From Celeribacter neptunius (GTDB taxonomy: Bacteria > Pseudomonadota > Alphaproteobacteria > Rhodobacterales > Rhodobacteraceae), in assembly GCF_900113955.1 (NCBI RefSeq), contig NZ_FORH01000001.1:922395-986394 (forward strand): a stretch of DNA of 64,000 nucleotides, written 5' to 3'. Under the pieces are notes generated by a model. That model was given only the letters and a program-made list of their open reading frames with translations, ran no database searches and was not told the DNA's origin. Positions 33,666-36,720 of the stretch are shown one piece after another; position 1 is the first letter of the stretch; every line of letters starts with the position of its first letter. The translations under genes were made by a program, and so were the position numbers.

Positions 33666-35255
33666 TCACCGCGCCTTGAACAGGCCGCCGAGGATGCCGC
33701 GGACGATGCGTTTGCCGGTGGTGCCGGTGAGTTCCTTCATCACCATCTTGCCGAGCTGCTCACCGATGCTCTTCTCGGACGACTTGCGGCTCGAGCTGCG
33801 TGAGCTGGATGTGCGGCTGTAATTCTGACCGTCGTAACGCCGTGCCTTGCTGAATTCGCGCTCCAGCGCCTCGCGTCCAGAGACCTCTTTCGCGGCCTCC
33901 TCTTCGGCCTTCTCCGCCGCTTCGGCGGCCTTGGCGGCGGCTTCGGCCCGGGCTTTCAGCATTTCAAAGGCGCTTTCGCGGTCCAGCACCGCCTCGTATT
34001 TTCCGGCAATCGGCGAGGTGGCCATCACCTCGGCGCGCTCCGCCGCGGTGATCGGTCCGAGTTTCGACGAGGGCGGGCGGATCAAAGTGCGTTCGGCCAC
34101 GCCCGGCTCGCCCTTCTTGATCAGGAACGAGGTCACCGCCTCGCCGGTGCCGACCTGTTTGATCGCCTCTTCGATGTCAAACCGCGGATTGCTGCGATAG
34201 GTCTCGGCGGCCAGCCGCAGCGCCTTCTGATCGCGGGCGGTAAAGGCCCGGAGCGCGTGTTGCACCCGGTTGCCCAATTGGCCCAGGATATCCTCGGGGA
34301 TGTCATCCGGGTTCTGGGTGACGAAATAGACGCCCACGCCCTTGGAACGAATGAGCCGCGCCACCTGCTCCACCTTGTCGACCAGCGCTTTCGGCGCGTC
34401 GTCGAACAGGAGATGCGCCTCGTCGAAGAAGAACACGAGTTTCGGCTTGTCCGGGTTGCCGATCTCCGGCAGTTCCTCGAACAGTTCAGAGAGCAGCCAC
34501 AACAGGAAGGTGGCGTACAGCCCCGGCGCCGACATCAGCGTATCGGCGGCGAGGATGTTGATCCGGCCACGGCCATCCACATCCGTGCGAATAATGTCGG
34601 ACAGCTCCAGCGCCGGCTCGCCAAAGAGCTTGTCGCCCCCCTGGTTTTCCAGCACCAGAAGCCCGCGCTGGATCGCGCCGAGAGAGGATTTGGAAATATT
34701 GCCATAGCGCAGGGTCAACTCATCGGCATTCTCACCGCACCAGACCAGCAGCGCTTGCAGGTCCTTGAGATCGAGAAGCGGCAGACCCTGCTCATCGGCG
34801 ACCCGGAAGGCGACGTTGATCACCCCTTCCTGCGCTTCGGTCAGGCCCAGAAGCCGCGAGATCAACAGCGGGCCCATTTCGGCCACGGTGGTGCGGATCG
34901 GGTGGCCCTGTTCGCCGAACAGATCCCAGAAGGTGACCGGGAAGGCCTCGTATTTATATGCCTCAGCAAAACCGATGGTCTCGGCCCGCGACATGAAAGC
35001 CTCGTGGAGCTTGAAATCCGCAGAGCCAGATTTTGCCAGACCGGAAAGGTCGCCTTTGACGTCGGAGAGAAACACCGGCACGCCCTGGGCCGCGAAGCTC
35101 TCGGCGAGGATCTGCAAGGTCACGGTCTTGCCGGTGCCGGTGGCCCCGGCGATCAGCCCGTGGCGGTTGCCGTATTTCAACAACAACTCCTGCGCCTCGC
35201 CATAGGCTTCGCCACCTCCGCCGACGAAAATCCGGTCCAGTCCTGTCTCTGCCAT
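33666..35255 (-). CDS. HerA-like ATPase (DUF853 family)
   Basis: A 529-residue P-loop ATPase. Walker A is GATGTGKT (37-44) and Walker B is [16 protein letters not shown]; the arginine-finger region and the C-terminal helicase HerA-like domain continue to about 400. A long Ala/Glu coiled segment (about 440-475) and a Ser/Arg-rich linker ([15 protein letters not shown]) precede a short conserved end ([20 protein letters not shown]). The DUF853/YjgR family is related to DNA-translocating FtsK/HerA motors, but a DNA role has not been shown. No nuclease (NurA) gene is adjacent. Cytoplasmic. Confidence 0.92.
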
Positions 35256-35365
35256 GCGATCGCCCTTCTCTCATCTCGTCCGACGCCGCGTGTTGCGCCG
35301 TCACACCTTTGTGATTCGTCGTAAACGCCTGTTTTTTCAACAGCGTACGCTCATACAATACAAAT

Positions 35366-35476
35366 TTAACCAGTTCCTGCCACACTCGAATTGTCCGAAC
35401 CATGTCCTCTTCGGTTCGGATTGACTTCCTCCCTGTCAGACTGGCCGCCCGGGTCCTCCCGGCGCGGCCTTTTTTT
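35366..35476 (+). ncRNA. Candidate 'cuckoo'/CcsR-like small RNA with anti-Shine-Dalgarno loops
   Basis: Within the gene-free stretch 35256-36084. Three successive hairpins each show a CCTC-type loop. Hairpin 1 is TCCGAACC/GGTTCGGA (35394-35401, 35413-35420) with loop containing TCCTCT. Hairpin 2 is TGAC/GTCA (35422-35425, 35435-35438) with loop TTCCTCCCT. Hairpin 3 is a GC-rich terminator (35443-35453, 35458-35469) with TCCT loop next to CCC, followed by seven T residues (35470-35476). TACAAT (35354-35359) is a good -10; the -35 is poor. CcsR RNAs of Rhodobacter and NfeR1/alpha-r14 RNAs of Sinorhizobium share CCUCCUCCC loops that block ribosome-binding sites. Confidence 0.65.
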
Positions 35477-35669
35477 GTGCATCTGCGCGCGCAGACCCCG
35501 AGGGCAAGTGGCTCCCCGACAAGGCGGCTCTGCCGGCGGCGCGGGCTGATCTGAAGCGGCGCAGGCCGCCTTTGAGAGATTTTCCTTCAATTTCGGTGAT
35601 TTGGGGTAATTTTACCGTTTTTTCTTTGCAATTTTGACATTGACGATTGCAGGAACCTGTCATAGCGTT

Positions 35670-35779
35670 GTCGCAATTAAGTCGGCCAAGTCCGACAGGG
35701 AGAAAGTTCAGGATTAGCTAGGTCATCTGACCTGAAGATCCACAGAAGCCTCGGGTTCGCCCGGGGCTTCTGTCATTTT
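35670..35779 (+). ncRNA. Candidate structured small RNA with UUCG-capped terminator
   Basis: TTGACA (35634-35639) and TGTCAT (35658-35663), 18 bases apart, predict a start near 35670. The transcript folds GTCGG/CCGAC (35681-35685, 35692-35696) and TTCAGG/CCTGAA (35707-35712, 35731-35736). It ends with a 14-bp stem (35742-35755, 35760-35773) capped by TTCG and followed by CATTTT. No open frame with a ribosome-binding site is evident inside. The region 35780-36084 downstream holds nothing else I can support. Not assigned to a family. Confidence 0.55.
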
Positions 35780-36084
35780 GACGGTCCGGGGTTACGGTCG
35801 GGGTTCATCCGCCGTTTCGGCGATGAGCGTTTTTGCCGAACTCTGCGTCAACGCTCTGCCCATATACCCGCCCTATACACCCGGCCCATACGCCCTTCCC
35901 GGCCGCGCGTGTCAGACATCCGCCTGCGCGCATCGAACCGACCCCGGCAAAGCGCGCGCGCCCGAAACACCCCGAGGGTCAGCGCAGTTTGGCCCGTTCA
36001 CGATTTTTTTCTTTGCCGCCCCCTGACAGCTTGCCGATGGCGTGCTACAGCAAAGGCCAATTCTAACGAACATATGGATAGAAG

Positions 36085-36720
36085 ATGATCCCCATCTCCC
36101 GCAAATTGATTGCCCTTGCCAGCGCCACCGTTCTCTCTTTCGGCGCCGCGATGCCGCTGTCCGCCCAGGAGAGCGGGCTCTCCGCCGGGACGCCGGTCGA
36201 TGCCGAGGGCAACGCAACCGGCACCGCCGCGGACAATGTCGGTCGCGCCTATACGCTGGAAACCCAGGGCGATTGGGAAATCCGATGTATCAAGGCCCCC
36301 GAAGGCCAGGCCGACCCCTGTTCCATGTATCAGCTGCTGAAAGATGAACAGGACAATGACGTCGCCGAGGTGGCGCTGTTCCATATGGGCAAGGGCGATG
36401 TCGAGGCCGCCGCGACCTTCACCACGCCGCTTGAGACGCTTCTGACCGGGCAGCTGGCGCTGTTCGTCGATGGTCAGAACGGCCGCAAATACCCGTTCCA
36501 GTTCTGCAACAAGGTCGGCTGTTTCGTGCGCGCCGGTCTGACCGCCGCCGATGTCGATCTGCTGAAAAAAGGCAATGAAGGCATGGTGGGCATCGTGCCG
36601 ATGGGCCGTCCGGATCAACCGGTACAGCTTAAGCTGTCGCTGACCGGTTTCACCGCGGCCTATAGCCGCGTGACGGAGCTGAACGTCGCGGCCCAAGGCG
36701 ATGCGGCCCCGGCCGAATAA
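36085..36720 (+). CDS. Invasion-associated locus B (IalB) family protein
   Basis: A 211-residue exported protein. The signal peptide (KLIALASATVLSFGAAMPLSA, cleaved before QESG) is followed by the IalB domain (about 55-195). Its conserved parts are ETQGDWEIRCIKAPEGQADPC, a CSMYQLLKDE stretch, and FQFCNKVGCFVRAGL with paired cysteines likely forming disulfides. IalB proteins are periplasmic; the name comes from Bartonella but free-living alphaproteobacteria have them widely, with no defined activity. Single-gene unit ended by the terminator at 36747-36779. Confidence 0.94.
   Translation: MIPISRKLIALASATVLSFGAAMPLSAQESGLSAGTPVDAEGNATGTAADNVGRAYTLETQGDWEIRCIKAPEGQADPCSMYQLLKDEQDNDVAEVALFHMGKGDVEAAATFTTPLETLLTGQLALFVDGQNGRKYPFQFCNKVGCFVRAGLTAADVDLLKKGNEGMVGIVPMGRPDQPVQLKLSLTGFTAAYSRVTELNVAAQGDAAPAE

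Follow-up and report, generated by a model that had tools for sequence, protein, structure and literature searches.

The question raised by positions 35366-35476 of the window (the whole stretch of 64,000 nucleotides of Celeribacter neptunius DNA analysed here) is what kind of small RNA, if any, is encoded there. The initial annotation proposed an anti-Shine-Dalgarno (anti-SD) RNA of the cuckoo/CcsR type. Sequence comparison indicates two small-RNA genes in tandem on the same strand, sRNA1 at the flagged stretch and sRNA2 about 200 nt downstream, and we describe each in turn before considering how they may act on one another.

Putative promoter, hairpins and conserved core of sRNA1

The sRNA1 stretch is flanked by a minus-strand HerA-like gene and a plus-strand IalB gene (Table 1), which are found near sRNA1 in 53 and 55, respectively, of 56 distinct 2-3 kb loci. 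BLASTN finds the stretch in 18 of the 19 other genomes of the genus, in 29 of the 61 genomes searched (its own included), and in 113 of 198 genomes of the family; a covariance model (R1), built from 54 loci and spanning sRNA1 and part of its promoter, raises the last count to 160 of 198. Both R1 and the corresponding model for sRNA2 (R2) contain promoter columns, and therefore detect the gene rather than the RNA alone. A search of the plasmid database gave no match. Duplicates (L030, L048, L059-L062, L068, L083, L086) were removed before counting; counts over 117 loci exclude L022, L029, L117 and L159, which do not contain the 28-nt core string, alignment A1 excludes L028 and L029, and the core/sRNA2 association test also excludes L028 and L160.

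Table 1. Features of the sRNA1-sRNA2 locus, in window coordinates.
Feature	Position	Strand	Basis
HerA-like ATPase gene (PF05872)	33666..35255	-	Pfam, 722.7 bits
sRNA1 putative promoter region: box AATACAAATTTAACC (35357-35371) and extended -10 TGC-CACACT (35378-35386)	35357..35386	+	column conservation, 117 loci
sRNA1, predicted 84-nt anti-Shine-Dalgarno RNA	35393..35476	+	fold, conservation, predicted 5' end
sRNA1 hairpin 1, loop AUGUCCUCUUC	35393..35421 (stem 35393-35401/35413-35421)	+	covariation
sRNA1 core (seed) UUCCUCCCUGUCAGACUGGCCG	35426..35447	+	conservation
sRNA1 intrinsic terminator, stem GGCCGC...GCGGCC and T7	35443..35476	+	98.1% of cells paired (54 sequences)
sRNA2 putative promoter, TTGACG, 17-nt spacer, TAGCGT	35640..35668	+	conservation, 121 loci
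sRNA2, predicted sponge/anti-sRNA	about 35675..35779	+	covariance model R2, fold; 5' end predicted
sRNA2 5' hairpin, GUCGG-CCAAGU-CCGAC	35681..35696	+	97.7% of cells paired (62 sequences)
sRNA2 antisense segment GGCCAAGUCCGACAGGGAG	35684..35702	+	exact opposite-strand match to sibling-core pattern CTCCCTGTYRGACTNGSCC
sRNA2 terminator hairpin	35742..35779	+	14-bp stem
IalB family gene (PF06776)	36085..36720	+	Pfam, 120.1 bits

The stretch as first delimited folds with -42.8 kcal/mol (z -5.5), and none of 200 shuffled sequences equals it, bearing out the earlier prediction of a stable structure. It corresponds to a small-RNA gene, as proposed, although probably not to a transcript that begins at 35366, as the first 21 nucleotides (35366-35386) are promoter-like. 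The consensus upstream of sRNA1 in 117 loci is AATACAA-N2-TTAACC-N6-TGCCAnnnT, in which the -10 element has A at its second position in all 117 and T at its sixth in 107; no -35 consensus was found in the same loci. A conserved box, AATACAAnnTTAACC, sits at the -35 place (35357-35371) and resembles an activator site. This upstream region would act as a promoter, and the 5' end is placed near 35393 because of the conserved extended -10 and the usual 7-nt offset, such that the transcript probably runs from there to the end of the T run; the 84 nt fold with -40.5 kcal/mol (z -6.3; 0/200 shuffles equal). A long-range helix joining the upstream TGCCAGTCT to AGACTGGC in the core was also considered and rejected after alignment, because TGCCAnnnT behaves as an extended -10, with middle letters that vary, whereas AGACTGG hardly does. 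A simple scan for sigma-70 promoters and terminators reported nothing in 35200-36100 and listed neither terminator of the tandem, and for this reason the promoters and terminators of both genes are assigned here by comparison between loci.

Three consecutive hairpins had been described, of which comparison upholds the first and the last. Hairpin 1 has changes on both sides in eight of nine pairs, with 81.1% of cells paired (54 sequences), and the strong GC stem followed by seven T residues is confirmed as a terminator. Hairpin 2 (TGAC/GTCA) is present in the predicted fold, but none of its pairs shows changes on both sides in the 54 sequences, and two of the four are broken, in 20 and 14 of them respectively; as judged from this alignment, the conserved feature at this place is the sequence itself and not a helix. 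The CCUC-type motifs that were noted in or at each loop are all present in this strain, although the only one that is invariant lies in the core, where CCTCCCTG occurs in 117/117 loci. TCCTC is enriched in the hairpin-1 region (48/117 loci, against 8 when shuffled), and its occurrence in the terminator is a peculiarity of the strain (2/117, against 11 when shuffled). Where the flanking genes are kept, the core loop is kept with them, but hairpin 2 and the third loop are not.

The core is the most conserved part of sRNA1 and consists of CCUCCCUGU-GACUGGCC (also written UUCCUCCCUGU-GACUGGCC), with UCCUCCCUG invariant in the alignment of 54. Within the window CTCCCTGTC occurs once on each strand, the minus-strand match being an antisense copy inside sRNA2, and the element is accordingly a single-copy one, as the initial annotation had it. 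Taken together, the assignment of sRNA1 as a small anti-SD RNA is well supported by these comparisons.

Relatives of sRNA1

Cuckoo RNAs are defined by several hairpins that each have CCUCCUCCC in their unpaired part (PMC10746234, PMC3927594, in the passages available), and cuckoo/CcsR RNAs are described as often associated with a DUF1127 gene, at the CIN1 locus (passages of PMC10253847). The motif CCUCCUCCC is present in none of 117 sRNA1 loci, and none of them has CCTCCTCCC in the 60 nt to the left or right of the core. In a search with the Rfam models, which the initial annotation had suggested as a check, sRNA1 scores 19.3 bits with ar14 (cut-off 58.8, E 0.31), and CcsR1 gives no match at sRNA1 up to E = 5. 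The immediate neighbours are the HerA-like and IalB genes, with no DUF1127 gene beside sRNA1. Membership in the cuckoo/CcsR/alpha-r14 group, as distinct from an anti-SD nature, is rejected on these three observations.

The same genome has RNAs of that type outside the window. A CcsR/cuckoo-type array with seven copies of CCTCCTCCC is located at C9:393346-393718 (L071, L073), and a second ar14-like RNA at C5:676085-676204 (L074); L073 and L074 follow directly after DUF1127 genes (Pfam 43.2 and 28.4 bits). The array reaches up to 50.1 bits with ar14 and up to 46 with CcsR1, below the cut-offs of 58.8 and 65.3, and since a CcsR-type array of this genome itself stays under the Rfam cut-offs, the motif test is stronger than the score test. 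It is possible that sRNA1 and the cuckoo/CcsR RNAs have targets in common.

At gathering level Rfam has no match at the flagged stretch. The best relaxed matches are SorX (24.1 bits, E 0.0023) and suhB/MmgR (25.0 bits, E 0.0083), with cut-offs of 46.6 (RF02784) and 41 bits (RF00519), and with SorY (RF02651) sRNA1 scores 15.6 bits, the best SorY locus of the genome, at C5:367693-367770, scoring 62.4. Reaching the cut-off of no family, sRNA1 is filed under none. In the alignments, SorX, SorY, suhB and sRNA1 all have the core, placed ahead of the terminator, and we therefore read sRNA1 as an anti-SD sRNA of the SorX/SorY/alphaR8 kind; by this measure its closest relatives are SorX, SorY and MmgR/alphaR8. 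The internal unpaired 10-mer of alphaR8, UUUCCUCCCU, has the counterpart CUUCCUCCCU in the window (9/10 bases), with no conserved helix around it, and a rho-independent terminator follows the core as in alphaR8 RNAs (98.1% of cells paired, and a T run of at least 5 in 112/117 loci).

Several related loci were noted outside the window. The SorY ortholog (L063, minus strand) lies, by reading, between a LysR-type gene and purL. SorY-like genes are present at E <= 1e-6 in 242 of 295 family genomes, and one of the 295 exceeds the Rfam cut-off of 111 bits, a threshold that leaves out almost the whole family. In 19 of 20 SorY loci inspected the core could be located, and it reads ACCTCCCTGTTGGACTT in 18 of these. 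That sole above-cut-off match, at C4:1632645, agrees with the 5' end of 1,632,642 published for R. sphaeroides 2.4.1 (passages of PMC6238624), and we therefore take the genome to be that strain. A third sibling candidate at C5:131460-131529 (L080, minus strand) has the core CTCCCTGTTGGACTTGG and a terminator-like hairpin and is, by reading, upstream of a metG-like gene. SorX-like RNAs with CCUCCCUGU-N-N-ACU are seen in other alphaproteobacterial families (L178, L181, L182, L183, L185, L186), where GACGUGAA is immediately 5' of the core in 6/6 and the SorX model gives 34-42 bits, under its cut-off. Paracoccus sRNA-29 was considered as the same locus and rejected, as it is described as antisense to an ABC transporter gene (passages of PMC6686037).

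A second predicted gene, complementary in part to the core

The pattern of the sibling cores, CTCCCTGTYRGACTNGSCC, occurs at 42 places genome-wide with up to three mismatches, and the sole exact one is on the opposite strand, just downstream of sRNA1. The plus strand at 35684-35702, 258 nt past the start of the core, reads GGCCAAGTCCGACAGGGAG, and falls within a second predicted gene, sRNA2, with a putative promoter and terminator of its own. Among 121 loci the promoter has TTGAC in 121, a 17-nt spacer in 118, TA in 121 and the final T in 118; scored against a consensus drawn from the same loci, 98 of the 121 reach 10 or 11 of 12, and shuffled upstream regions reach at most 9. sRNA2 is about 100 nt long here; in most other genera its length, judged by eye, is roughly 60-75 nt. 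The fold of 35667-35775 has a z of -4.8, three of five pairs in the 5' hairpin show changes on both sides (62 sequences), and a T run of at least 4 follows in 109/117 loci. Rfam gives no match to the antisense part, and its BSnc120 match spans the terminator hairpin only. The possibility that sRNA2 encodes a small protein was rejected, with ATG in the expected window after the SD-like GGGAG in 17/117.

In 122 of 127 sRNA1 loci (121 and L163) a nucleotide profile places sRNA2 next to sRNA1, downstream and on the same strand, with a start-to-start distance of 80 to 455 nt (median 128, profile matches); among loci fetched later (L095-L174), none of which is in the profile seed, it is found in 67/71. 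The profile has no match in L021, L101, L141, L166 and L172. Two of these, L141 and L172, resemble additional core-like copies, and their genomes (G161, G194) have the tandem elsewhere. The covariance model R2, comprising the promoter and the 5' part of sRNA2, finds it in 173/198 family genomes, and by hand tally 154 of the 198 have both genes, 19 sRNA2 only, 6 sRNA1 only and 19 neither (Fisher p 2e-11, in a test that ignores phylogeny). In a 289-genome sample of the class R2 reaches four genomes within the family and four outside it, the latter at E 0.004-0.008 only. The tandem is present in the R. sphaeroides genome, both genes on the minus strand (sRNA2, 66.7 bits, C4:1426570-1426642; sRNA1, 47.1 bits, C4:1426668-1426787), upstream of IalB and beside FabF. 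At this locus (L223, by inference) no HerA-like match is present in the 5-kb stretch. One or other of the two R. sphaeroides RNAs may conceivably be a numbered RSs RNA.

Complementarity to the sRNA1 core extends over about 19 nt in the 5' part of sRNA2, which is nearly the mirror complement of that core, and for this reason sRNA2 is probably an off-switch for sRNA1 and its relatives. The predicted duplexes of sRNA2 in this genome have energies of -35.1 kcal/mol with sRNA1, -41.9 with the SorY ortholog and -42.2 with the C5:131460 sibling, against a shuffled mean of about -15; with one CcsR loop the value is -14.9, near the shuffled mean of -13.4. As expected of a sponge, sRNA2 is thus complementary to the seeds of sRNAs of the same cell (-35 to -42 kcal/mol). 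sRNA2 of R. sphaeroides gives -38.6 with the Rfam consensus core of SorY and -39.3 with that of SorX. In five of the six genomes in which both were compared, the duplex with SorY is stronger than that with sRNA1, and in the sixth it is 0.3 kcal/mol weaker.

There are also signs that the two partners have changed together. When each sRNA2 is paired with its own sRNA1 none of 2000 permutations of partners is as good (n=117, ignoring phylogeny), although the gain is small, with -36.9 against -36.5 kcal/mol and a mean of 0.4. A core with ACUU is accompanied by AAGU in sRNA2 in 6/7 cases, compared with 6/92 otherwise (p 5e-6, one locus per genus, ignoring phylogeny), and in 7/8 versus 19/107 when all loci are counted. 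In a genome of another family (G441, L184/L224) the tandem lies beside other genes, with a core of UGUUCAACU and a downstream AGUUGAACA, both partners having changed. Such a tandem, kept with matching changes in both partners, is the reason for thinking that the arrangement may predate the order, although the 13-nt complement at L184 is suggestive only, since shuffling its downstream region 100 times gave an equal match at least once; a search within the order to which G441 belongs covered two genomes and one match, already known. In ten other loci from the search of the class, of which two belong to the family, the exact complementary run is no longer than chance, a measure that fails for family loci because of an A-C mismatch.

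Further observations count in the other direction. The A-C mismatch is present between core and complement in most loci, with a bulge in addition in Celeribacter; the sRNA1 core of R. sphaeroides has diverged (CCUGAACUGGACUGG) and its sRNA2 has not; sRNA2 is seen with no detected sRNA1 in 19 genomes, and the converse in 6; and the antisense segment is partly taken up in the 5' hairpin of sRNA2 itself.

Proposed function and comparison with known systems

One could account for the complementarity with two independent small RNAs, both of them tied to ribosome-binding-site-like sequence, without functional pairing. That complementarity of CUCCC with GGGAG is by itself common, and that the mismatch and the R. 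sphaeroides divergence stay unrepaired, would agree with this, but the complementarity extends past the SD part (GACUGGCCG), the duplex energy is 20 kcal/mol better than the shuffled mean, core and sRNA2 show joint changes, and the tandem is kept in 122/127 loci; we regard independence as rather unlikely. It seems unlikely, too, that sRNA2 is an ialB 5' leader carrying a conditional terminator, to which the siblings bind so as to alter read-through, in which case it would be their target and not an antagonist. In 55 of the 56 loci compared ialB follows on the same strand, and UpsM of R. sphaeroides is described as a leader-derived RNA that is cleaved after pairing with another sRNA (passages of PMC8625941). 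Against this, the sRNA2 terminator and the ialB start are about 300 nt apart in the window (less in R. sphaeroides, where the choice of start codon puts the gap at about 110 to 310 nt), L224 of G441 has no IalB match in the 5 kb read, and the antisense part comes first in the predicted RNA, just behind the promoter.

Two further readings concern family membership. sRNA1 could be a marginal true member of alphaR8 (MmgR/suhB), in which case sRNA2 would be a homologue of CrfA and not an analogue. CrfA is reported to antagonise alphaR8 RNAs (passages of PMC12559287), CUUCCUCCCU is one base off the alphaR8 10-mer and the suhB match has an E of 0.0083, but sRNA1 falls below the suhB cut-off, the antisense part of sRNA2 has no Rfam match, and outside the family the sRNA2 model reaches only those four marginal genomes of the class sample; we hold this to be quite unlikely. 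For a cuckoo/CcsR-type RNA, as first proposed, speak the anti-SD motifs in the loops and the fact that the ar14 model aligns at all; given CCUCCUCCC in none of the 117 loci, no Rfam support and arrays of this type beside DUF1127 genes elsewhere in the same genome, it is highly improbable.

The reading that we favour, and consider fairly probable from the sequence comparisons, is that the locus comprises an anti-SD RNA, sRNA1, and a sponge for it and its siblings, sRNA2, each with a separate promoter. The promoters, terminators, conservation, adjacency and complementarity of the two genes are read directly from the sequence, and from them we infer that the two RNAs are made and form a duplex in the cell, with sRNA1 as a repressor of mRNAs and sRNA2 as an antagonist of the siblings, as well as any conditions of their expression. 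The unpaired core of sRNA1 (UUCCUCCCUGU-GACUGGCC) would, in the manner of SisA, occlude the sites at which ribosomes bind target mRNAs. The 5' end of sRNA2 would display the complement of the core, including the SD-like GGGAG, and so mimic a ribosome-binding site; it could then pair with sRNA1, SorY, SorX and the third copy, probably on Hfq, and its binding would free the mRNAs bound by the siblings and relieve repression. That the tandem represents a family-wide RNA-only module, an anti-SD RNA with its own sponge that also titrates SorX and SorY and acts as a shared regulator of the network of singlet-oxygen and transporter sRNAs in Rhodobacterales, is a broader proposal to which we would give an even chance.

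Both SorX and SorY have been studied as stress RNAs in R. sphaeroides, a model organism. SorX is described as acting on the mRNA of a spermidine transporter subunit (passages of PMC8625941) and SorY as influencing the stability of takP mRNA (passages of PMC6238624). If sRNA2 exists as an RNA, the two would have a common antagonist on which our searches found no paper; a search of the open-access literature returned none describing sRNA2, or the tandem with a family-wide sponge, by title, start of abstract or passages. The tandem layout makes the co-evolution of an sRNA and its sponge directly testable over some 150 genera.

Among the known systems, the cuckoo/CcsR/alpha-r14 RNAs (RF02344, RF02791) are like sRNA1 in their anti-SD loops, but sRNA1 has neither CCUCCUCCC nor a DUF1127 neighbour, and the CcsR-type copies sit elsewhere. 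SorY of R. sphaeroides has the core CCUCCCUGU-N-GGACU followed by a GC terminator in about 83 nt (Rfam alignment) and its own promoter (passages of PMC6238624), in both of which it resembles sRNA1, whereas hairpin 1 and the gene neighbourhood of sRNA1 are different and the SorY ortholog is a separate gene in the same genome. SorX of R. sphaeroides has the same 3' module as sRNA1; it is described as cut from the 3' UTR of ompR-1 (passages of PMC8625941), while sRNA1 has a conserved promoter-like region of its own. With MmgR and SisA-D (alphaR8) sRNA1 shares the near-identity of CUUCCUCCCU and UUUCCUCCCU, a hairpin before and a terminator after, but its neighbours are the HerA-like and IalB genes and not an N-formylglutamate amidohydrolase gene.

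The closest parallel to sRNA2 is CrfA of Caulobacter, which is described as sponging the alphaR8 RNAs SisA-D and is likewise a small RNA complementary to the anti-SD core of several sibling sRNAs (passages of PMC12559287). The two differ in that sRNA2 is in tandem with one of its partners and would pair through its 5' end, whereas CrfA, compared here by its description, uses its second stem-loop (same source), and in that the complementarity of sRNA2 covers about 19 nt, including a part downstream of the SD-like stretch. If the arrangement proposed here is correct, the CrfA-SisA circuit of Caulobacter would be an instance of a rule and not an isolated oddity.
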